Assembly: GCF_017742995.1 (NCBI RefSeq)
Contig: NZ_CP072426.1
Location: forward strand, 1,237,392 to 1,301,391
Source: Pseudoalteromonas viridis
Lineage (GTDB): Bacteria > Pseudomonadota > Gammaproteobacteria > Enterobacterales > Alteromonadaceae
Length of the DNA: 64,000 bases
Reading direction: 5' to 3'
Part shown: positions 34,363-49,986 of the stretch, one piece after another
Position numbering within the stretch: position 1 is the stretch's first letter
Layout of the letters: each line of letters opens with the position of its first letter
Made by a program: the position numbers and the translations under genes
The notes under the pieces: generated by a model
Database searches by the model: none
What the model was told of the DNA's origin: nothing
What the model saw: only the letters and a program-made list of their open reading frames with translations

Positions 34363-35493
34363 CAGTTTCGCCCCGCGAGTTCAGGGAACACATTTTTTGA
34401 TAAGTGGCTGACCATGCTGATCGGCGGTTCAGCCCCGTGCGTACGGGGAACACATCGACATCAACAATACCTAGTTGAATCCATTCGGTTCAGCCCCGTG
34501 CGTACGGGGAACACAGTATTCGTTTCCAGCTTAGCAATTGTGGCCGCGGTTCAGCCCCGTGCGTACGGGGAACACATAAGCATTTGGTGGATGCGTCGTT
34601 GGTAATGCGGTTCAGCCCCGTGCGTACGGGGAACACTTCATTCGATAGTTTAAGCGCGATTTTTAGCCGCGGTTCAGCCCCGTGCGTACGGGGAACACTC
34701 GCTCAACAATCTCAAGCACCAGGCGGCTCTCGGTTCAGCCCCGTGCGTACGGGGAACACATGTACGGTGCTGTGAATGTTGCAATGCCTGGCGGTTCAGC
34801 CCCGTGCGTACGGGGAACACATGCCAGCTTAAGTTCGCTAAGGCTGAAATCACGGTTCAGCCCCGTGCGTACGGGGAACACGTAGAGCCGGATGACGATA
34901 GCGGTAAATTTCAACGGTTCAGCCCCGTGCGTACGGGGAACACTATTATTAACGCTGTTTGATGCATTAAAAGACCGGTTCAGCCCCGTGCGTACGGGGA
35001 ACACGTTTTAGGTTAAAAAAATCCATTATGCGGCGTCCGGTTCAGCCCCGTGCATACGGGGAACACCCACGCCATCGCGCACGCCGTTCAGGCTCTGGCG
35101 GTTCAGCCCCGTGCGTACGGGGAACACAATATATCAAAAATGATATTGAAATATATCAACGGTTCAGCCCCGTGCGTACGGGGAACACCGTTTGTGCGTG
35201 CATACCCATAGTTATTGCACCGGTTCAGCCCCGTGCGTACGGGGAACACGCTTAGAGTCTGGCCCAACTACAAACCCGCTACGGTTCAGCCCCGTGCGTA
35301 CGGGGAACACGTTGCGGTCAGGGTGGTTTAGCATACCGTAAACGGTTCAGCCCCGTGCGTACGGGGAACACAAGTTGACCGCTGCCGTTTACTGTTAATT
35401 CCGCGGTTCAGCCCCGTGCGTACGGGGAACACGATCTCTGCGTCAGCGTACCAAACGTCATTAACGGTTCAGCCCCGTGCGTACGGGGAACAC
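34363..35493 (-). CRISPR. CRISPR array 1, type I-E, 19 repeats
   Basis: A 29-base repeat (on the plus strand it starts CGGTTCAGCCCCGTGCGTAC and ends GGGGAACAC) recurs with 32-base spacers; four spacers are 33 bases. Eighteen repeats are near-identical (one has GCAT for GCGT, at 35038), and the first, at 34363, is degenerate. The read orientation is the minus strand, where each repeat begins GTGTTCCCCGTACGCACGGGG, the I-E type with a palindromic stem. The degenerate repeat is thus the leader-distal end, and the leader is on the right beside cas2. Confidence 0.99.
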
Positions 35494-35648: not shown

Positions 35649-36883
<1,235 letters not shown>

Positions 36884-36954
36884 TCCCTGCACTCCTGAAT
36901 TGAATAAAAGATTAGTGAAGAAAGAAGGCGAGTCGCCCCGCCTTACTGATTAGA

Positions 36955-37632
36955 TTACAAAGGTTTAATCAACATCATCCCACAGCCAAAAGCTTTGGAG
37001 CGGCCGATGCCGTTGAATAATGCCTGCTCCAGTTTTTGCACATCGGTGATTTTCGCCACACCAAAATAGTCCAGTGTGCTTAACTGGATGGGCCTGGCCC
37101 CGTCTTTTTTAACCACTTTATGCTGCTTGTAATTGCTGAACTCAATACACTGAGTCAGCAACTCCAGACCACCCTTTTGTAGTTTTTTGTCAAGCCAGGC
37201 TTTTGCAGCAATATCAACAGCTTCATTCACGTTGCTATTTGCTCTTTGAGCCTGTTTTTTGGCATGCATCAAAACATCGTGACGGCGAGTTTTCTCTCCT
37301 TTTGGCGTAATATCTACCGTGGGGTTAGCTCGCAACGAAAACTGAACCAGCCCAGCATCTTTGAGTTGTTCCGGCTGTGTTTGAGTAACTATTTTCCAGC
37401 TTTTAATCGCTTCTTTTAGCTGACGTTTTGAGCGAATAAATACTGTTGGCACTGGCAGGGCCATATCCACACGAAACATAAAATCAGCCTGAGTCAGCTC
37501 GCTGTCAACAAAACAACGCCACACCCACTGATGCTGCTTGTAAAGATCATCAGGATGTAAAAACCCAAGATCTTCTCCCGCCTGGTCAGGATCAAAATAC
37601 AATCGGCTCTCGTACCAGAGAATGTCAGACAT
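36955..37632 (-). CDS. cas6e: Cas6e pre-crRNA endonuclease
   Basis: 225 residues with the tandem ferredoxin-like layout of Cas6e (CasE/Cse3) and the C-terminal Gly-rich loop GIGRSKAFGCGMMLI, which contacts the repeat hairpin. It cuts at the 3' base of the repeat stem and stays in Cascade. It overlaps cas5 by eight bases. Confidence 0.95.
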   Translation of the reverse strand: MSDILWYESRLYFDPDQAGEDLGFLHPDDLYKQHQWVWRCFVDSELTQADFMFRVDMALPVPTVFIRSKRQLKEAIKSWKIVTQTQPEQLKDAGLVQFSLRANPTVDITPKGEKTRRHDVLMHAKKQAQRANSNVNEAVDIAAKAWLDKKLQKGGLELLTQCIEFSNYKQHKVVKKDGARPIQLSTLDYFGVAKITDVQKLEQALFNGIGRSKAFGCGMMLIKPL

Positions 37633-38302
37633 ATAGCACTTCCTCCGTATCTACCAATCCCCAACTGCTTTTAACGCTTCTAAATGTAAAGGCCCGGTGG
37701 TTTATCTCAAAGCTCAGTGGCACGTCATGCCGTTGCTCCGTGCCTTCTTGTGCTTCGCTGTCTATGATGTATTTCACCGGTGTTCCGTTTATCTTTTCAT
37801 GCTCGGCTTGCATTCTTGGCGCTTGTTGCAACGCCTGCTCTAAAGGTAACCCTAAACAAGCATTGTGAGGATCAACTAACGGAATGCCCGGCAAATAGGA
37901 CTTACGCCCTAAAAACTGCGGCCAAACCGGGTTTAACAAGGCATGATGCAGTTTTTTAAGCAAAACCACGTCGCCTTCAAAGCCTACCCAAAAGGCAGCA
38001 TCCGCCAGATAAGCTCGGTGCGACAACTGCGTGTCCGGCTTGCCACCGTCAGCCTTTGCCACATTCAGCGCCGTTTGATAATCAAATGCCAGATCGCCTG
38101 GTTTATCTATGCGCACGCCCATTCGCAATGCAGTAAGATCATTCAGAGGCTCATTTCGCTCACGTCCTAGCGATGCGCACAGCAAACCGATCACACCACT
38201 TTTTGTCGGATCAAGCTGAGTATTGCGCAGTTCAAAGGCACTTTTTAGCCCCCATGACTGCATTGGTCCGGCTAGTCGGATCAACAAAGTGCTCATTGAC
38301 AC
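37625..38302 (-). CDS. cas5e: Cas5e Cascade subunit
   Basis: 225 residues beginning MSMSTLLIRLAGPMQSWGLKSAFELRNT, the I-E Cas5 (CasD) signature: LxGPMQSWG near the N-terminus. It binds the 5' handle of the crRNA. It overlaps cas7 by ten bases and cas6e by eight. Confidence 0.96.
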   Translation of the reverse strand: MSMSTLLIRLAGPMQSWGLKSAFELRNTQLDPTKSGVIGLLCASLGRERNEPLNDLTALRMGVRIDKPGDLAFDYQTALNVAKADGGKPDTQLSHRAYLADAAFWVGFEGDVVLLKKLHHALLNPVWPQFLGRKSYLPGIPLVDPHNACLGLPLEQALQQAPRMQAEHEKINGTPVKYIIDSEAQEGTEQRHDVPLSFEINHRAFTFRSVKSSWGLVDTEEVLYV

Positions 38303-39438
38303 TCCAAAGCACCTTGCAGTGCATCAAGCATCTGAGCTTCCAGTTGTGCAATGGTGCCACTGTCTTTGTCCTGATACTCTTCCAGATTGTCGATGTAAGT
38401 GCTGCGGCCCTCAAAAATAAAGCCCGATTCGCCATACATAGCCGCCAGCTTCTTGGCGAACATTTCCAGTTTTTGTGCCGACTGGTGCTCAAGCTCCGCT
38501 TCATCAGGCTTGTCTATCATTACCGCCTGAGTAAATGCGTTGCTCAGAGACCAGGGCGCACCACCTTTGCGTACATTCACTTTGATATAGCTTGGCGGAT
38601 TCTGCGCCGCAAAACTGTTTTGTTTACCCGAAGGCACCGCCTGAACTAACGCCCGGAAAAACCCTTTTACCGCGCCAGTCACCTGTTCCTTATCCTGCCC
38701 AAGATTGGCCGCCAGTTTATCTATATTGATCTGGGCATAGCGGTAATAACAGGCACTGTTAAAGTAAACGCCACCCATCATGCCAGAGCCTTGCTCACCT
38801 GCCTGTAACTCATCGTCCACAGCAGTGAAAAAATCCATGGCTGGTGTAACGATATTGGTTGAAATTGCATGGGCCACCTGGCACGCCGCATCAACATTAA
38901 TATTGTTGTTGTCCGCGACCATACGGCCGAATAGTGCGATATCTGCGGCGAAAGACTTACCCTCTTTTACAAACACATCGCCCACCGCTTTGGTGATGGC
39001 TTTGTCCAGCTTGTCTGCCTGAAACTCACTAAAGTGCGCCTCAGCAATCGCTTTCAAAGCACTCACTTCATTTAATCCAAGAAACAGCAGATATTCTGTT
39101 TTAAACGGATGCTTTTTGTCTTTGCTCAGGCTCAGCTTTACCTGTTCTAACAACTTTTGTGCGACGGTTTCGCTTTGCTTTTCGTCATTACCATTAGCAA
39201 TCAGGTGATCACGGATGTCGATGGCTAGCTTACGAGTGCGTACCGCACGATCGCCCTGATGCTCTACCACTGCATCGTTAAATGCCCCATGTGTACGGAT
39301 CGCACGCTTCTGACACTGGCTTGAGATACGCGCCCGTTGTGAACCACCGAACACACAAGATTTTGGCGTATTGGTATCGTCGCGGTTTAGGTTGCTGGGG
39401 GCAAAGTTCTGTAATACATGAAATTCGATAAAAGACAT
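38293..39438 (-). CDS. cas7e: Cas7e Cascade backbone
   Basis: 381 residues. It starts MSFIEFHVLQNFAPSNLNRDDTNTPKSCVFGG, the I-E Cas7 (CasC/Cse4) pattern, with SRISSQC-type contacts (RARISSQCQKRAIR). It forms the six-subunit crRNA backbone. AAAGGAG lies eight bases before the ATG. Confidence 0.97.
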   Translation of the reverse strand: MSFIEFHVLQNFAPSNLNRDDTNTPKSCVFGGSQRARISSQCQKRAIRTHGAFNDAVVEHQGDRAVRTRKLAIDIRDHLIANGNDEKQSETVAQKLLEQVKLSLSKDKKHPFKTEYLLFLGLNEVSALKAIAEAHFSEFQADKLDKAITKAVGDVFVKEGKSFAADIALFGRMVADNNNINVDAACQVAHAISTNIVTPAMDFFTAVDDELQAGEQGSGMMGGVYFNSACYYRYAQINIDKLAANLGQDKEQVTGAVKGFFRALVQAVPSGKQNSFAAQNPPSYIKVNVRKGGAPWSLSNAFTQAVMIDKPDEAELEHQSAQKLEMFAKKLAAMYGESGFIFEGRSTYIDNLEEYQDKDSGTIAQLEAQMLDALQGALECQ

Positions 39439-39452
39439 AAGATAACTCCTTT

Positions 39453-41537
39453 TTAATTTGTCGCGTCTGCTGAGTTTGTAGACTCATCGGATTGAATTGG
39501 TTTGGCCCAGTAATCTCTGGCCCATTTAAGTTGAATGCGTTTATCGTCGCTATCCCAGTGATAGAGATCTTCCATCAGGGTTCGGTAATCAATGGCAATG
39601 TCTTTACTTTTTAGAATTTGTACCATCTGGCGCAGCGTTTGTTTTAACTGCTCGCCTTTGGCCTCCAGCAGGCACTCAAAGCGAAAGCTCATGCCGGGGC
39701 GCTCACTGCCATCGCAGATCTGCCAAGCTTTACCAAAGCTCTGATGCTTTTCGCTAAAGTACAGTGTGTTATGGCTAGCAAACAGTCCAGCAACAAAGGC
39801 CTGAGTCTCAGCTCTTGTTAAATCGTCAGATAGAAGGTGAGCAAGATAGGGCATGACAGCAAGGTGCGTACTCTTTTGTTGGTCAAGTGACTTTTTCAGC
39901 GCAGCGAGAATTTCCCGGTTTGGATGCTCCGGGTTTGCCCATTGCTCCAGTTTTGCCACTAATGTCTGTGTATCCTCACTCCAGTATTGGCTAGACTGCC
40001 ATTCACGTCCATAAAGTGCCCGCTCCAGCTGCTGTGACGCAAGACCCAACCCTTTTTTAACTTTTGAGCCTCCATAACGCCAACTCACCGTCGCACCTTC
40101 GAACGCCTTCATCGCTGTGCCTATACAAAGTGCACGCCATTTAGCATTGGCATCATCTGTGTTAGTGCTCAGCGCCCAAACAAACTGCTCAAACCCTTCA
40201 TTTAGCCGTGGCCAGTAAAATCTGTCTGGGTTGATCGCAGACACTCTTGCATTCACATCCTGAACGCGAGCACCATCAGGCAACAAATGCCGGGCAAATA
40301 CCCTAACTGCATTTTCAAGCTGGTAGAACATGGCTTCTGCGGTTCTCAGGCCATTTACCAATAACTCACTGTAATTGATGCCCAACTCTGCATCTTTTTG
40401 CACCAAGTTTGCAGGCAAGGGTAAGCGCTCATTGAACCACGAAAGCGGGTTGGCCTTGTTGTTGTCCAGCCCAATCAGCTGACAGTTCAGCGTAAGTCCA
40501 CTTAACACTCTATTATCCAATGTTGCCAGCAGCTGAACGCCCGCTGGACGCAAGTCTTTGGTTGCTATTTTACCTTTTGTAAATTCCGCCAGTCGTAACA
40601 GGTTGGCTGTATCTCGCCAGCAACTGCGTGCAAAACTCAGTCGAACAGGCAACATTTTTTCGTCTTTGTTAAGGCGGTAGGCAAAATAAGGTTCCCGAGG
40701 CATTTCTTCCGGTGTTGGCAGGCCCTGAGAAAAATGCATTTCAGATACTGATCCATCTTCCTCAGCAATAAGCCGAACGTGCCTTGAACGCCATGTCAGA
40801 TAATCGGTTAGGCCACGCATAGCCCTGGCTTTAGGGGCCTCCTGTTTACTATCTGTTTGCTCCCACACAGGCAAATCAGAGTCATCCAGCAGGGCTTTAT
40901 CTTTAGGCATTTTCAGGTTCAGCATCAGGGTTTGAAATAAGTTTTCCCCTTCAACCATCACCACAGCACCGCCCACTAGAGGCGCATTAGTAAAGTTGGG
41001 GTGTTTCTTAAATAAGTTTGAACTGCCACTTACCCCACCTCCGAGGCTAAAATACTGACAAACCAGTAGCTGGATCGCCGCTTCACTCGCTGAGATTGAG
41101 AACTTTTTGTTATCAGCCAAATGGCTCCAGAGTAGCTTATTTGAACCTGTACTATAGTCGGGCACTAGCTTTTTAACCGATGTGGTTACACCATTGTCTT
41201 TTTGAAATTCGGCAGTCTGAAAAAAGGGATACTGCGTACAAAACAGATCGAACTTCCCCTGGCATCGGTCAGACTTTATATAATCAAATACACACGCATC
41301 AAACTCTCCTTTTTCGAATGCTTTGTGCCAGTTTTTACCGCTTAAATACCGGTAACTGCGGTAAAGTACGGCTAGCAACAGCCTTGAAATTGCGCTGACG
41401 GCTAGTGGCCTGTCATGCACAATTTGGCGCAGTTGGGGGGCAGCCTGTAGCACACCACGTATTGAGTAGTGCCGGATCTCACCCTGTAAATCTTGTGCCG
41501 GGATCCAGCACTCCTGTTCCAAAAGATCATAGTCCAT
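39453..41537 (-). CDS. cas8e: Cas8e-Cas11 (Cse1-Cse2) fusion
   Basis: 694 residues, about 190 longer than E. coli Cse1 (502). Residues about 1-530 are Cas8e-like (ARDLQGEIRHYS-type start seen here as WIPAQDLQGEIRHYS, then IGLDNNKANPLSWFNERLP and the C-terminal four-helix bundle). The last ~160 residues carry the Cas11/Cse2 signature: FECLLEAKGEQLKQTLRQM, ILKSKDIAIDYRTLMEDLYHW and WARDYW. No separate cse2 ORF exists; only 15 bases separate this gene from cas7. I chose the ATG at 41537 with AGGAGG upstream. Cas8e recognises the PAM and recruits Cas3; Cas11 stabilises the target strands. Confidence 0.9.
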   Translation of the reverse strand: MDYDLLEQECWIPAQDLQGEIRHYSIRGVLQAAPQLRQIVHDRPLAVSAISRLLLAVLYRSYRYLSGKNWHKAFEKGEFDACVFDYIKSDRCQGKFDLFCTQYPFFQTAEFQKDNGVTTSVKKLVPDYSTGSNKLLWSHLADNKKFSISASEAAIQLLVCQYFSLGGGVSGSSNLFKKHPNFTNAPLVGGAVVMVEGENLFQTLMLNLKMPKDKALLDDSDLPVWEQTDSKQEAPKARAMRGLTDYLTWRSRHVRLIAEEDGSVSEMHFSQGLPTPEEMPREPYFAYRLNKDEKMLPVRLSFARSCWRDTANLLRLAEFTKGKIATKDLRPAGVQLLATLDNRVLSGLTLNCQLIGLDNNKANPLSWFNERLPLPANLVQKDAELGINYSELLVNGLRTAEAMFYQLENAVRVFARHLLPDGARVQDVNARVSAINPDRFYWPRLNEGFEQFVWALSTNTDDANAKWRALCIGTAMKAFEGATVSWRYGGSKVKKGLGLASQQLERALYGREWQSSQYWSEDTQTLVAKLEQWANPEHPNREILAALKKSLDQQKSTHLAVMPYLAHLLSDDLTRAETQAFVAGLFASHNTLYFSEKHQSFGKAWQICDGSERPGMSFRFECLLEAKGEQLKQTLRQMVQILKSKDIAIDYRTLMEDLYHWDSDDKRIQLKWARDYWAKPIQSDESTNSADATN

Positions 41538-42011: not shown

Positions 42012-44897
42012 TTACCTCTTAGAGTGATTGTGACTACTCCTACATTTCTCTACTTTTAATCCCAACACGGGATCCAGTTTAAGTGTGCCAATCGAGGGCA
42101 CTGAGTAGGTAAAGTGCTGATCCAAGATAACCGGTACACAACAGTGTAGCTGTGAAGTTCTTTGCCACACATCCTGAGCGACAAAATTAAATGGCCAGTT
42201 GCTTTCAACTTCACGAAAGTGTTCAACCCAGTCTGCATGGCTGAGTTTCACCAAGGATTGCTTCAGCCTGCCAATATCATTTTTATTAAAGCGTTTATCT
42301 GCACGCCAGTTTATCGCTTCATAGGGAGCATTTTCTCTCATGGGCGTCTGGCATTGTTGCAGGTAAGGCTGATATTCTGTAATGGGTACCAACGAGCCGT
42401 CTTCATTCTGGATCAGCAGAATTATCTGCACACTGAGACTGGCAAGCCGGGTCGATAAAACCAAGTCCTCATCATCAAACTGATCATTTAGATAATCCAG
42501 CAAATCCGATACATCTTCCTGGTCTGCATCGAACATCATGTTGTTAGCAAGCCGGTACACGAGCTTCTTTTCAAGCTCGAATTCAAACGCTTTTTCTTGC
42601 TCCTGCTTCAACCAGTCCGCCTGCTGCTCAATATCGGTGTATACGTTATTTACCCAATCATCAATCTCTGTATCAAGATCCAACTCGAAACCGTTATTCT
42701 TCCCTGTACTTGCAGCTTCCTCCCACAGCAAACGGGTCGTTACCCCGAGTATATGCGACGGGTAAATTTTGACATCGGCGTATCCAAGCCATTTAGCGTA
42801 GTCTTCAGGGATCTCATCTAACCCCGGCAAATAGACATTAAGTCTCGGGCTTTGAACAAGCTTAGACCTGAAAGGGTTATTTACCTGATGCCGCCATATC
42901 CGCCCTAGCCGTTGCATGATCAGATCAATGGGTGCGACCTGAGTAAACATCTCACAGGCGTCATAATCCAAACTCTGTTCCAAAACTTGGGACCCAATTA
43001 AAATTAAACACTGATCTTTGACGGGTCGATTTGGATTAACCGCTTTTCGATCTCCCGGATTCTTGCCTACCAGATATTCAACCATGTCTTCGATGGCTAA
43101 GCGGTTACCGATGGGGTATCTGGCATGAAACACCAGACACTGCATGTTTTGACTTTCCTTCCGATTGCATTGCTCAAGGATAATTTCACTGAGTGCCTGC
43201 GCCGCGTTTACCGTATTCAGGATACACACAAATACACCGCATCCCGCCTCCTTTACGCGTGCCAAAACATCGCTTGCCATCTGTTCAACACACTGTTGTG
43301 GCGTGGTTTTATGCAACTGAATCCCAAACCGTTTAGGTGGTGAAGCCAGCTCATCAGTATTTTTACCTTCTGCAACGTGAACAGATGTCGCCAACTGCCC
43401 TCCGCTATAAGTTGTAAGCCTCGGATAGGCAGCCTCTTTTAGCTCAATATTCTTACCGAACTCCTGGCCATAAGCCTGCACTAACTCTCGGAGCATTAGT
43501 TTAGGTAAAGTAGCAGATAATATGATTACCCTGACTTTCAGTTTTGCCATCCACCGTAACGTGTTTTTGAGCAAAGAAAGCTGGAAGTAATCCAGTGCAT
43601 ATACCTCATCTAATATTACGGTTTTGTTCGCAATAGCGAATAACCGCACAAAATTATGCTTGTAACGCATAGCAGCCATAAGCAGTTGATCAATGGTGCC
43701 AACACAAGCTCCGGCCAGTAACCCTCTTTTTTTAGCTGTAAACCATAAGTTTGCCTTTACGGCATTTTGCTCATTCAGATCCTCAATACTGGACAGCAAT
43801 AAGCCCTCATAAGCTGGGTTAAACTCCGCGTTACTGTGCTTTAAATGGGTTTCGATGTCCTCATAACCCAAAGACTCATGTTTCAGGAACTTCAATGTCC
43901 GTTTATAGAGTTGATTCGCCGTAGCCTGAGATGGCATAGCCACATACAGCCCAGAGTGATCCAGGTTACGAATAAAATGGTCAGCCAGTATGAGTGCAGC
44001 TTCTGTTTTTCCGCTTCCCATACCGCTTTCAATCACTGTCAGCCAGGGCAATTCTTGTGAGTTAAATAAGGCTAATATGCTTTGCTGCAGTGCGTTGGGT
44101 TTAAAGCCAAAGACTTTATTGAATTCAATGATACTCTGTGCAGCTTTTACATGCTTAATGTTCAGCTTATCTGCCAGCCGGTGTGCCGTCTCAACACGCA
44201 GCGCAACATTGGCAAAATACTCATCAGAACTGATGTAGGTAAAATAGTGATGATCGGAGCCAATCCAGTCAGCAACCGAGCATAGTCCAGCCATATAGAC
44301 GTACCAGGTGGGTGTGAGCAGTTCATCGTCAATTTCACAAAGCAGTGAAACGTCAACCAGAAAGTAGTCGAATAGCCATTCAATCGAAGCTAGCTGAACT
44401 TTTTCCCAGATATAACCTTTTCCCCAAACTCGACCATTTTTTGAATCGGTTACAAATTCTCCATGATGACTTGCGACAGAGGAGAACAAAGGTTTTTCGG
44501 TGTAGCAACTTAGGCCGATACTTTCTGCCCAGTTTGATAATATCTTGTAACCAGACGTACCATGTTGAGTTTCACTTGCATTCTTAAGATCGTATCTCTG
44601 AGTATCAAACAGCCTTCTGATACGTTCAAATGGCAACTTATACTGAAAACCCGGTGTGATCTTGCCAATATCATGCACGGCAATAAGCAGTACTACCATA
44701 GCAATCGCCGTATCTTCATCAACGCCTTCAATAGCTAAAAACGGCTTGAGTAAAATAGCCCGCTCCTGAGCTGCCAGTTTGAGAATAATCGCCCGGGCCA
44801 CAAAGGCGACATCCAGCATATGACACACTGCGGGTAACGTATTGTGCTCGTCGGCCTTGCCCCAGAACTGAAAAATCTCGCTATTAAAATCACTCAC
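42012..44897 (-). CDS. cas3: Cas3 nuclease-helicase (type I-E)
   Basis: 961 residues. An N-terminal HD nuclease domain (about 1-270) has His18, His26 and the His75-Asp76 pair in LIAVHDIGK. The SF2 helicase follows with Walker A in ESGMGSGKTEAALI, motif II LDEVYALD (Tyr where E. coli has His), motif III ILSATLP, and motif VI QRLGRIWRH. Cascade recruits it to unwind and degrade DNA. The start is a GTG at 44897 with AAGGAAG seven bases upstream. Confidence 0.96.
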   Translation of the reverse strand: MSDFNSEIFQFWGKADEHNTLPAVCHMLDVAFVARAIILKLAAQERAILLKPFLAIEGVDEDTAIAMVVLLIAVHDIGKITPGFQYKLPFERIRRLFDTQRYDLKNASETQHGTSGYKILSNWAESIGLSCYTEKPLFSSVASHHGEFVTDSKNGRVWGKGYIWEKVQLASIEWLFDYFLVDVSLLCEIDDELLTPTWYVYMAGLCSVADWIGSDHHYFTYISSDEYFANVALRVETAHRLADKLNIKHVKAAQSIIEFNKVFGFKPNALQQSILALFNSQELPWLTVIESGMGSGKTEAALILADHFIRNLDHSGLYVAMPSQATANQLYKRTLKFLKHESLGYEDIETHLKHSNAEFNPAYEGLLLSSIEDLNEQNAVKANLWFTAKKRGLLAGACVGTIDQLLMAAMRYKHNFVRLFAIANKTVILDEVYALDYFQLSLLKNTLRWMAKLKVRVIILSATLPKLMLRELVQAYGQEFGKNIELKEAAYPRLTTYSGGQLATSVHVAEGKNTDELASPPKRFGIQLHKTTPQQCVEQMASDVLARVKEAGCGVFVCILNTVNAAQALSEIILEQCNRKESQNMQCLVFHARYPIGNRLAIEDMVEYLVGKNPGDRKAVNPNRPVKDQCLILIGSQVLEQSLDYDACEMFTQVAPIDLIMQRLGRIWRHQVNNPFRSKLVQSPRLNVYLPGLDEIPEDYAKWLGYADVKIYPSHILGVTTRLLWEEAASTGKNNGFELDLDTEIDDWVNNVYTDIEQQADWLKQEQEKAFEFELEKKLVYRLANNMMFDADQEDVSDLLDYLNDQFDDEDLVLSTRLASLSVQIILLIQNEDGSLVPITEYQPYLQQCQTPMRENAPYEAINWRADKRFNKNDIGRLKQSLVKLSHADWVEHFREVESNWPFNFVAQDVWQRTSQLHCCVPVILDQHFTYSVPSIGTLKLDPVLGLKVEKCRSSHNHSKR

Positions 44898-44901
44898 ACT
44901 G

Positions 44902-45016
44902 TTACTTCCTTGCTTTTAATACACTCAGCTTACGACGCGAATAAAATGCCGACAATCCTGCGATTGCAACCAGTAAAAAAATTAACCGGTCTGGTGCGTT
45001 TGCTCAGCTGTTCCAT
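44902..45016 (-). pseudogene. Small membrane-protein ORF with a frameshift, upstream of cas3
   Basis: The ATG at 45016 (MEQLSKRT) overlaps the WYL stop and stops at 44930 after 28 codons. In the +1 frame the same stretch reads APDRLIFLLVAIAGLSAFYS followed by RRK and a basic tail to the stop at 44902. It matches the 40-residue protein at 41631-41753 in order: N-A-P, membrane helix, F-Y, Lys/Arg tail. Removing one A from CAAA (near 44998) or one T from the T7 run would restore one ~37-residue protein. Confidence 0.5.
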
Positions 45017-45837
45017 AATAACCTTCTGGCCCTCAGCTCTCTGTAGCAGGCCGGTTCCATCACAATTTGCTGTGCTTCCGGGTGTGGATGCTGAACATCT
45101 AACCTCAAAATGCTGATCAGGTAATTGATCAATGCAGCGTTGGTTTTTATTTGCTTTTGGTGGTTGTGCATATCAAAGTCGTGGGCAATAACTTGCTGGG
45201 CGTATTCGCTGAGTCTTGGGTCGGGAATAATGGTTAAAGTGACTTCCTGCTGCCAGGCTTCGTCGTCTTTTTTGTATTTTTGTGCTTTGCTGATAAATTC
45301 CGGGGAGGCAGAGACGATACGCGATAATGAAAAGTCTCTGAAGCCTTTGGCTTTTTCACAGTAGGCTCTCAGGTGGTAACGCAGCCCGGAGTTGATCAAG
45401 GTGTGAGGGCGGATCACGCGCTCGGTTTCACCGCCTTCTTTTATTGACTGATAGCGAATATCCAGCACGCTTTGTCGCCGACAGGCATTTAATATGGGTC
45501 GCAGAATGGTTGGATTGAGCTTTCTGTGTGGTAATGCCAGCGCTGTGATGGTGGAGGTGCTCAGGTTATGGACATACTGATCGCCGGTCAGACTGGCGTA
45601 TTCAGCAAAATCCTGAGAGATGTAGTTCGGTGTAAAGGGGCTTGTCAGTACATAGGCTTTGTCAGACTCATTGTAGCTTGCTGCAATCTGGTAGCGCTCG
45701 ATAAAGTCGGTGACATAACGCCGTGCACTGGGCCGTGAAAGCTTGAATTTATCCTGGAAACTATCGGTTTGGATTTCTCCTTGCCAAAACAACACCGCTT
45801 CAATATACCGAAAATATTGCTCTTCCTTAGCCTGCAT
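45004..45837 (-). CDS. WYL-domain transcriptional regulator
   Basis: 277 residues with an N-terminal winged helix (about 20-60; FKLSRPSARRYVTDFIERY) and a WYL domain (about 115-190; LDIRYQSI, RVIRPHTLINSGLRYHLRAYCE, and FRDFSLSRI, the conserved Arg-rich ligand-binding region). WYL regulators often control CRISPR-Cas and other defence genes in response to nucleic acids or nucleotides. It is first in the cas gene series, so it is the prime candidate for cas control. Confidence 0.92.
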   Translation of the reverse strand: MQAKEEQYFRYIEAVLFWQGEIQTDSFQDKFKLSRPSARRYVTDFIERYQIAASYNESDKAYVLTSPFTPNYISQDFAEYASLTGDQYVHNLSTSTITALALPHRKLNPTILRPILNACRRQSVLDIRYQSIKEGGETERVIRPHTLINSGLRYHLRAYCEKAKGFRDFSLSRIVSASPEFISKAQKYKKDDEAWQQEVTLTIIPDPRLSEYAQQVIAHDFDMHNHQKQIKTNAALINYLISILRLDVQHPHPEAQQIVMEPACYRELRARRLLWNS

Positions 45838-45964: not shown

Positions 45965-46035
45965 GGCGGCAGTGTACCCCGATAGGTAAGGGGCTGTGTT
46001 ACAGTGATGTGAGTTCGATTCTCACCCTGCCGCCA
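45965..46035 (+). ncRNA. tRNA-like element A
   Basis: 71 bases: acceptor-like stem GGCGGCAG (45965-45972) pairs with CTGCCGCC (46027-46034) for eight pairs, then A. The D-arm is CCCC-GATAGGTAA-GGGG, and the T-arm GTGAG-TTCGATT-CTCAC has a perfect T-loop. The anticodon arm is only CTGTGTTACAG, too short for a normal seven-base loop. No CCA is encoded. It looks like a tRNA-derived RNA without a working anticodon. Confidence 0.6.
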
Positions 46036-46119
46036 CTTTGACATATTCTCTGCACTACCTTGATTCACAAAGCCAAGTGTCGCTTCACAAGCTGGTTAAC
46101 TTGAGCAATAATCGAACCT

Positions 46120-46195
46120 GGCGGCAGTGTTTCCAATGGGTAACGGTTATATGTAGTCTGTATATGATGTGAGTTCGAGTCTCGCCCTGCCGCCA
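46120..46195 (+). ncRNA. tRNA-like element B
   Basis: 76 bases, related to element A: the same GGCGGCAG/CTGCCGCC eight-pair stem, D-loop AATGGGTAA, and T-arm GTGAG-TTCGAGT-CTCGC. Here the anticodon arm is full-size, TATAT-GTAGTCT-GTATA, with loop bases AGT at the anticodon position. An A at the wobble position with C after it would be unusual for a bacterial tRNA. One unpaired C lies between T-stem and acceptor. No CCA is encoded. Confidence 0.6.
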
Positions 46196-46285
46196 CTTCT
46201 AAATCGACAACAATCACCAATTAACCCATTTTCAGAGTCTTTGAGAGCGAAAGCCTAAGCCCTCTTTCACCACTAGCAGCTTACA

Positions 46286-48184: not shown

Positions 48185-49986
48185 CGGTTTAGCCCTGCGC
48201 CTGCGGGGAACACTACATGGCACTCATAAAGCTGGCATTCGATCACGGTTCAGCCCCGCTCGTGCGGGGAACACAGCCATGACATTTTAAATTTATAAAC
48301 GTTATGCGGTTCAGCCCCGTGCGTACGGGGAACACAAAAAACCTACCATATCTCTCAGTTTATTAGTCGGTTCAGCCCCGTGCGTACGGGGAACACAACA
48401 GCACAGTGGATGGTTCGGTTAGCACAGACGGTTCAGCTCCGTGCGTACGGGGAACACTGTAGTCTGGGAGATTAACCAAGCGGGACGCTCGGTTCAGCCC
48501 CGTGCGTACGGGGAACACAACTCCGCAGGTGTGATTAGCGCAAAGTCGCAGGGTTCAGCCCCGTGCGTACGGGGAACACGTGAGAAGACCAACGCTTTCT
48601 GCTGCTATCTGCGGTTCAGCCCCGTGCGTACGGGGAACACACATGTTGGCACCCAGGCCAACAACGGCATTGGCGGTTCAGCCCCGTGCGTACGGGGAAC
48701 ACACCCGGTTAGTAAACGTGCCGCTATGGGCGCGCGGTTCAGCCCCGTGCGTACGGGGAACACCGAGCATTGCCCGGACTTCAAACGAACAAAAACGGTT
48801 CAGCCCCGTGCGTACGGGGAACACAATCGACAGATCGAGCGTAGCCACCATGTTCGCGGTTCAGCCCCGTGCGTACGGGGAACACACTGACAGTGCCGTC
48901 AGCTCTCAAATAAATACAGGTTCAGCCCCGTGCGTACGGGGAACACTGTCTACTGCTGCGTCGTTCAGCCGCTCTTTTCGGTTCAGCCCCGTGCGTACGG
49001 GGAACACGCAAAGACTGAACTGGCTGGGCAGCAAAAAGCGCGGTTCAGCCCCGTGCGTACGGGGAACACTCTATTTCTAAACCTGCATCGCTATCATCAC
49101 CCGGTTCAGCCCCGTGCGTACGGGGAACACGTCCATTTCGGCTAGGTCTTGCATGTTGGTTACGGTTCAGCCCCGTGCGTACGGGGAACACGTTGCATGG
49201 GTAAACTTAAAACCGCAACACACGCGGTTCAGCCCCGTGCGTACGGGGAACACATGTCACCGTGCATCAAATCCAGGTTTAGCCCCGGTTCAGCCCCGTG
49301 CGTACGGGGAACACTTGCCGTCAGGGCGGGTTTATTACTCATTACGCGGTTCAGCCCCGTGCGTACGGGGAACACAGGTCATCTAGTTGCAGCGACAGAT
49401 CCTGATCCGGTTCAGCCCCGTGCGTACGGGGAACACTGGCTAAATCTACGTCACTACAAGGCCAGGACCGGTTCAGCCCCGTGCGTACGGGGAACACTTT
49501 GCGTTGTTGTTCGTGATTGGTGACAAACTCGGTTCAGCCCCGTGCGTACGGGGAACACCAAACTGAATTAGAAACAAATCTGGATCATTGCGGTTCAGCC
49601 CCGTGCGTACGGGGAACACTCCGCCAGTTTGAACGTAAACGCCAGATGGTCAGGTTCAGCCCCGTGCGTACGGGGAACACGCGGGTATATAAAAGGATAT
49701 AAATGTCTGCCCACGGTTCAGCCCCGTGCGTACGGGGAACACAGTGATAGTGCATTAGTCGGCAGACCTGACAGCGGTTCAGCCCCGTGCGTACGGGGAA
49801 CACCCAGGGAGTATATCAATGAGCAACACAGCAAACGGTTCAGCCCCGTGCGTACGGGGAACACGGTGCCACCGGTGATGACGGCGAATTCGTCACCGGT
49901 TCAGCCCCGTGCGTACGGGGAACACGCGCTTCTTTGATACTGGCAACACCATATAAGCGGTTCAGCCCCGTGCGTACGGGGAACAC
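48185..49986 (-). CRISPR. CRISPR array 2, type I-E, 30 repeats
   Basis: Thirty repeats and 29 spacers, the same 29-base repeat as array 1. The two left-most (48185, 48246) are degenerate, including GGTTTAGCCCTGCGCCTGCG and a GCTCGTGC variant; 48429 has CAGCTCC; first-base variants occur at 48551 (G), 48918 and 49652 (A). Four spacers are 33 bases, the rest 32. The leader is on the right, so the degenerate end is leader-distal, as in array 1. Spacer 49254-49285 ends in GGTTTAGCCC, nearly a piece of the repeat. Confidence 0.99.

Follow-up and report, generated by a model that had tools for sequence, protein, structure and literature searches.

A Cas8e-Cas11 fusion in the type I-E CRISPR system of Pseudoalteromonas and its possible consequence for Cascade stoichiometry

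How is a type I-E Cascade built when its large and small subunits, Cas8e and Cas11, are encoded by one gene? For Class 1 CRISPR, type I-E Cascade serves as the reference complex, and the presence of two Cas11 copies in it is not questioned, even though Cas11 is reported in PMC12235044 to be dispensable for some functions in E. coli; in the canonical complex described in PMC5965380, six Cas7 subunits are combined with one Cse1 and two Cse2. The question is raised by a locus of Pseudoalteromonas viridis contained in a stretch of 64,000 nucleotides (the window), which covers positions 1237392-1301391 of the 1.3-Mb second replicon on which the CRISPR system sits (C2, 1301391 bases). A 97%-identical gene in P. 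piscicida 2515 is carried by a record of 1.32 Mb that is classed as a plasmid. An earlier note on this DNA had proposed that Cas8e and Cas11 are fused in a polypeptide of about 694 residues, and that a 1:1 fusion would be at odds with the usual stoichiometry. The gene and its parts are as follows.

39453..41537, minus strand: cas8e-cas11 fusion gene, an ORF of 694 codons with its ATG behind AGGAGG
40005..41537, minus strand: Cas8e (large subunit) part, residues 1-511, from profiles and predicted structure
39981..40004, minus strand: predicted linker, residues 512-519, the gap between the structure matches, with pLDDT <50 at 512-517
39501..39980, minus strand: Cas11/Cse2 (small subunit) domain, residues 520-679, from profiles and predicted structure

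The length of the ORF agrees with the long polypeptide that had been proposed. Cas8e profiles span residues 8-509 of its product (TIGR02547, 129 bits against a cut-off of 70; PF09481, 261 bits over residues 8-469), Cse2 profiles span residues 532-678 (TIGR02548, 70 bits against 28.5; PF09485, 80 bits against 24.6), and among the PADLOC models four for Cas8e and seven for Cas11e also give matches. In the predicted structure, residues 1-511 match Cse1 structures and residues 520-679 match Cse2 structures, the first Cas11 helix being placed at residues 521-533. The motifs cited earlier as a Cse2 signature, WARDYW among them, are found in the protein, and the Cse2 nature of its C-terminal part is borne out by TIGR02548, PF09485, the PADLOC Cas11e models and the predicted structure alike. 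By Pfam, NCBIfam, PADLOC and the structure prediction, one protein is thus confirmed to combine a complete Cas8e with a complete Cse2/Cas11 domain. A predicted linker of about 8 residues would keep the two domains near each other. One way around the stoichiometry problem would be a protease that cuts this linker, after which the separate subunits would assemble normally and some Cas8e would be discarded; the very low model confidence at residues 512-517 would suit such a cut, but the linker is merely about 8 residues long, and we consider cleavage improbable.

The stoichiometry problem would disappear if a second, free Cas11 were encoded elsewhere. In the whole genome, however, the fusion itself is the single PF09485 match at E <=0.001, so that the separate cas11 gene of a canonical I-E locus was not found by this profile, and in the eight other fusion-bearing Pseudoalteromonas genomes no PF09485 match besides the fusion rose above the cut-off. 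In a control search PF09485 reached E. coli Cse2 weakly, below the cut-off, and a very divergent free Cas11 might be missed at this threshold. A second Cse2 match in genome G053, at E 0.66 and with an internal stop, was dismissed. The earlier statement that no separate cas11 gene exists therefore stands for this genome and eight relatives as the fusion being their sole Cse2 match above the cut-off, and the problem posed by a 1:1 fusion holds up. Two findings had been named beforehand that would speak against the proposal, a C-terminal part without a Cse2 match and a relative with the same long Cas8e beside a separate cas11; neither appeared within the search.

The fusion is no accident of sequencing or assembly, since the same uninterrupted gene, 692-694 codons long, is present in 9 of 108 Pseudoalteromonas genomes, the window's included. 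Of 394 genomes sampled from the order, 39 had a Cas8e match, and in four of these (the window's and three from another genus, g58) the frame exceeded 700 codons. Cse2 matches were found in 32 of 369 genomes sampled from the class and 26 of 398 from the phylum; across these two samples, the dismissed G561 aside, the window's was the only one in a frame of more than 600 codons. The match in G561 (24.7 bits to Cse2, in an 851-codon frame) was rejected as a further fusion because the frame overlaps unrelated reading frames, and the 567-codon frame of G798 was rejected because it sits behind a separate Cas8e frame. When the Cas11 part was searched against the protein database it returned six proteins, all of them fusions of 692-694 aa; one was the window's own and the other five were Pseudoalteromonas proteins that NCBI names simply Cse1/CasA, which is why the fusion loci appear to lack cas11. 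The Cas8e part found at least 13 two-domain proteins (P0001-P0012 and P0073) among 120 of its 190 matches, and a search with P0073 added a further Cas8e-Cas11 fusion of 685 aa, P0121.

On a tree of 77 Cas8e parts, built by a quick method with SH-aLRT support alone and without P0121, the window's protein and P0002-P0012 form one clade of 12 fused sequences (SH-aLRT 99), within which identity to the window's protein falls to 37-38%. Its sister group, P0013-P0016, consists of unfused proteins of 510-513 aa, read as proteins. P0073, a fusion of 743 aa, groups with unfused proteins, and the fusions of the three g58 loci of the same order (L025, L027 and L035) have a separate origin on the tree, other g58 genomes having split genes. 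Over the 16 fused rows the label 'fused' changes four times, most simply as four gains, though some of the changes may be losses. The tree carries warnings for the long rows L071, P0116 and L054 and for the doubtful join of a group of 18 rows, the g58 rows among them; the main fused clade is untouched by these warnings. Given the depth of the 12-sequence clade and its unfused sister, the tree argues that the fusion is old and stable, and that the two genes have been joined on more than one occasion.

A different arrangement was seen in genome G667, of the same class, where a 357-aa tandem Cas11-Cas11 with two Cse2 matches in one frame (L054:4227-5297) stands behind a 535-aa Cas8e. This is the opposite solution to that of the window, with two Cas11 copies fixed in one chain.

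Around the fusion gene the window holds the remaining parts of a type I-E system.

34425..35493, plus strand: CRISPR array 1, 18 repeats of 29 nt
35649..35957, minus strand: cas2e (TIGR01873, 115 bits)
35954..36892, minus strand: cas1e (TIGR03638, 372 bits)
36955..37632, minus strand: cas6e (TIGR01907, 129 bits)
37625..38302, minus strand: cas5e (TIGR01868, 142 bits)
38293..39438, minus strand: cas7, Cse4/CasC (TIGR01869, 318 bits)
42012..44897, minus strand: cas3, HD nuclease and helicase (TIGR01587 and TIGR01596 above cut-off; PADLOC Cas3e, 504 bits)
45004..45837, minus strand: WYL-domain regulator adjoining cas3 (PF13280, 53.5 bits)
48185..49986, plus strand: CRISPR array 2, 30 repeats of 29 nt

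By profiles, cas3, cas8e, cas7, cas5e, cas6e, cas1e and cas2e are all present, and Cse2/Cas11 is present as a domain of the fusion. The repeats and spacers are also those of type I-E, in which repeats have 28-29 nt and spacers 32-33 nt: over both arrays, spacer length is 32 nt in 39 cases and 33 nt in 7. Against the whole-length I-E model PRK09694, cas3 scored 325, below the cut-off of 569, while the Cas3 core and HD models matched. The gap between the fusion and cas7, for which 15 bases had been given earlier, is 14 bases from the stop codon to the cas7 ATG and contains an AAGGAG site.

This setting bears on the suggestion that the system is decaying and that the fusion arose by accident, whether harmless or damaging, which we regard as very improbable. 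All other I-E cas genes score above their profile cut-offs (cas3 by its two domain models), the arrays keep 18 and 30 repeats, and the fusion persists across a deep clade. Between two Pseudoalteromonas groups, moreover, windows of 40 codons show amino acid identities of 0.44-0.97 in the fusion, against differences of 0.21-0.85 at fourfold sites.

Two tRNA-like elements, at 45965-46036 and 46120-46196 on the plus strand, lie between the WYL gene and array 2. Each has an 8-bp end stem and a T-arm-like hairpin, with folding z of -3.2 and -2.6; ARAGORN made no call on them, and the first scores 26.8 bits with Rfam tRNA-Sec, below its threshold of 47. Within the genus, 18 of 108 genomes have partial matches, which in G018 and G072 lie about 4 kb away from the fusion gene.

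Translation that starts inside the fusion gene could also supply free Cas11, either complete or truncated, which would restore the usual two Cas11 subunits. Internal ribosome-binding sites of this kind are reported for types I-B, I-C and I-D (PMC7684278), and the earlier note had named an internal start as one escape from the 1:1 ratio. Nine Pseudoalteromonas genes and three g58 genes were compared for such a start. Thirty order-sample loci had been fetched, of which L038 was left out of the reading, and the scanned stretch of L030 held no cas11-sized ORF. The g58 genes served as a positive control: in split g58 loci, GGAG stands 5-6 bases from the cas11 start in eight of the nine read, and the fused genes of L025, L027 and L035 all keep the GGAG-6 nt-ATG of the old cas11 start (-6.4 kcal/mol). 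Since the fused frame retains this ribosome-binding site and ATG, free Cas11 is probably still made in the g58 fusions, and there the internal-start route looks real.

The Pseudoalteromonas genes gave a different result: a ribosome-binding site and start conserved at the domain boundary were not found among the nine. Within codons 500-530 no in-frame ATG, GTG or TTG is common to all; GTG 527 occurs in three genes, three others have TTG 502 behind a poorly matching upstream sequence, and the remaining three have none. These last, L010, L011 and L012, lack any in-frame ATG, GTG or TTG across codons 496-562. The window's gene has one such codon between 500 and 530:

39957..39959, minus strand: GTG codon 527, candidate internal start, with GAGG 14 nt upstream

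The upstream duplex of this codon is valued at -6.0 kcal/mol in the window and at -4.1 in the two nearest relatives (94%), which keep the GTG; the other six genes have ATC, ATA or GTA in its place. Further starts are scattered. L014 has TTG 542 with an upstream duplex of -8.9, and codon 576 is ATG or GTG in six relatives, with strong upstream matches in L013 and L015 (-8.7 and -9.4); a start at this codon would yield about 117 residues, and the beginning of the Cas11 domain would be missing. P0008 and P0010, read as proteins, have a Met at the domain boundary. Any start at 527 or later, however, cuts into the first predicted Cas11 helix, and the boundary is without synonymous constraint: between the two Pseudoalteromonas groups, fourfold-site change shows no dip over codons 500-559, with values of 0.83 for the window that begins at codon 500 and 0.72 for the one that begins at 520. 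Because no boundary start is conserved, and codons 496-562 offer none at all in three of nine genes, these fusions are unlikely to rely in general on translating a complete free Cas11. As an escape route the internal start thus fared unevenly, with no conserved start in nine genes and a candidate, GTG 527, in the window and two relatives; local mechanisms may operate even where a conserved one is not seen. Taking the g58 precedent together with these scattered starts, we judge two Cas11 subunits supplied through internal translation to be unlikely in the window's system.

The contact residues of the Cas11 part bear on whether it is still functional. In E. coli Cse2, R27 and R101 anchor the subunit to Cas7 (PMC5965380). 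Across 14 aligned fused proteins (P0001-P0012, P0073 and P0121), the R27 place holds K or R in 13, with N in P0007, and the R101 place holds R in all 14. Among the residues reported to guide the displaced strand, K or R occupies place 142 in 13 of the 14 proteins, R occupies place 143 in 6, R or K occupies place 110 in 3, and the R53 place did not align. E150, reported as a bridge from Cse2 to Cse1, is conserved neither in the fusions nor in T. thermophilus.

A recombination breakpoint among Pseudoalteromonas strains was also observed inside the Cas11 domain, at 39695-39705 in the window (codon ~613). L009 and L011 differ upstream of about codon 613 and are identical across the next ~420 aligned bases, into cas7. 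Synonymous divergence is low in the last ~85 codons of the fusion; an overlapping element was considered as the cause and rejected in favour of recombination, given this breakpoint and the ordinary divergence of cas7 (0.58-0.64 at fourfold sites between the window and L003-L005).

Putting these observations together, we propose the following working of the complex. The Cas8e part would take its usual position at the crRNA 5' end and read the PAM. Two conserved basic residues of the tethered Cas11 domain would let it dock on Cas7 in the part of the belly adjoining Cas8e, where it would hold the displaced strand. Because the spacers have the normal length of 32-33 nt, a backbone of six Cas7 with room for two Cas11 is expected. 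If the fusion is the only source of Cas11, supply is 1:1, so the distal belly place would most likely be empty, giving a Cascade with one Cas8e and one Cas11. That a single fusion molecule serves in this manner as Cas8e and as one of the two Cas11 subunits, leaving the distal place vacant, we hold at about even odds, and this stoichiometry is the least certain step of the proposal. In the canonical complex the helix bundle of Cse1 touches Cse2.2, and the Cse2 dimer shifts by ~16 A relative to Cse1 upon DNA binding (PMC5965380). The tether might compensate for a missing subunit by raising the local concentration of Cas11 and by coupling its movement to Cas8e.

An empty Cas11 place seems tolerable, since E. 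coli Cascade without Cas11 still silences and retains plasmid interference at lower efficiency (PMC12235044). Against this, Jore et al., as reported in the same paper, found every subunit to be needed against phage lambda. A single Cas11 per complex is supported by the kept Cas7-anchoring places and by both domains being full length. It is weakened by the lack of conservation at E150, which faces Cse1, and at R110, by R53 being unaligned, and by the upstream match of GTG 527 coming near that of the g58 control (-6.0 against -6.4), albeit at longer spacing.

The main rival accepts the same tethered chain and fills both places: a second fusion would occupy the distal place with its Cas11 domain alone, leaving its Cas8e part unattached. 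The spacer length leaves space for two Cas11, the anchoring residues are retained and the linker is predicted to be flexible, but an additional Cas8e part of ~500 residues would presumably crowd the complex, and we think two fusions per Cascade rather unlikely. Among the rivals it nevertheless ranks ahead of free Cas11 from an internal start, which in turn ranks ahead of cleavage. A bolder reading, to which we assign a probability of roughly 0.4, is an obligate single-Cas11 I-E Cascade, in which all Cas11 of the cell would be covalently attached to Cas8e, nothing would fill the distal place, and locking of the R-loop would be linked directly to the subunit that reads the PAM.

A search of open-access papers turned up no description of a type I-E Cas8e-Cas11 fusion. 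The passages found in PMC12669027 mention none, and the word cas8e is absent from its main text; mentions of cse1-cse2 or cas8e-cse2 in the retrieved parts of PMC12231136, PMC10952691 and PMC4762764 proved to be mere gene lists. The parts and the pathway are standard, and what is new is the covalent join and its consequence for stoichiometry: Cascade in these marine Pseudoalteromonas probably departs in its construction from the textbook version. A long-lived natural fusion without an evident free Cas11 makes it directly testable how many Cas11 are needed, and why there are two, and it offers a Cascade from four protein genes rather than five. Should the obligate single-Cas11 reading be true, other lineages would display the steps from split genes, through a fusion with a kept internal start, to an obligate fusion.

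Compared with the canonical I-E systems of E. coli K-12 and Thermus thermophilus HB8, the window has the same gene set and order apart from cas11, the same folds, 29-nt repeats and 32-33-nt spacers. Those systems encode casA and casB separately, with overlaps of 8 and 4 bases between the two genes, respectively, whereas the window has one gene; for the canonical complex a ratio of one Cse1 to two Cse2 is described (PMC5965380). Types I-B, I-C and I-D resemble the window in carrying a small subunit at the 3' end of the large-subunit gene; they are described as producing it separately from an internal ribosome-binding site (PMC7684278), in contrast to the Pseudoalteromonas fusions with no conserved site, and the window's proteins all match type I-E families. 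Type I-F likewise has no separate Cas11, and one large subunit is thought to do both jobs (PMC5965380), but the window's proteins are type I-E by profile and their Cas11 part is a recognisable Cse2 domain. The variants I-E2 and I-E3 share with the window the fusion of domains inside type I-E; they are described as joining an HNH nuclease to Cas5 or a PD-(D/E)xK nuclease to Cas11 (PMC12669027), whereas in the window neither Cas5 nor the fusion matched a nuclease or further Pfam domain at E up to 1. The closest likeness in architecture is to the g58 fusions (717-727 codons), which join the same two domains in the same order, and which differ in their separate origin on the tree and in keeping the old cas11 start in frame.
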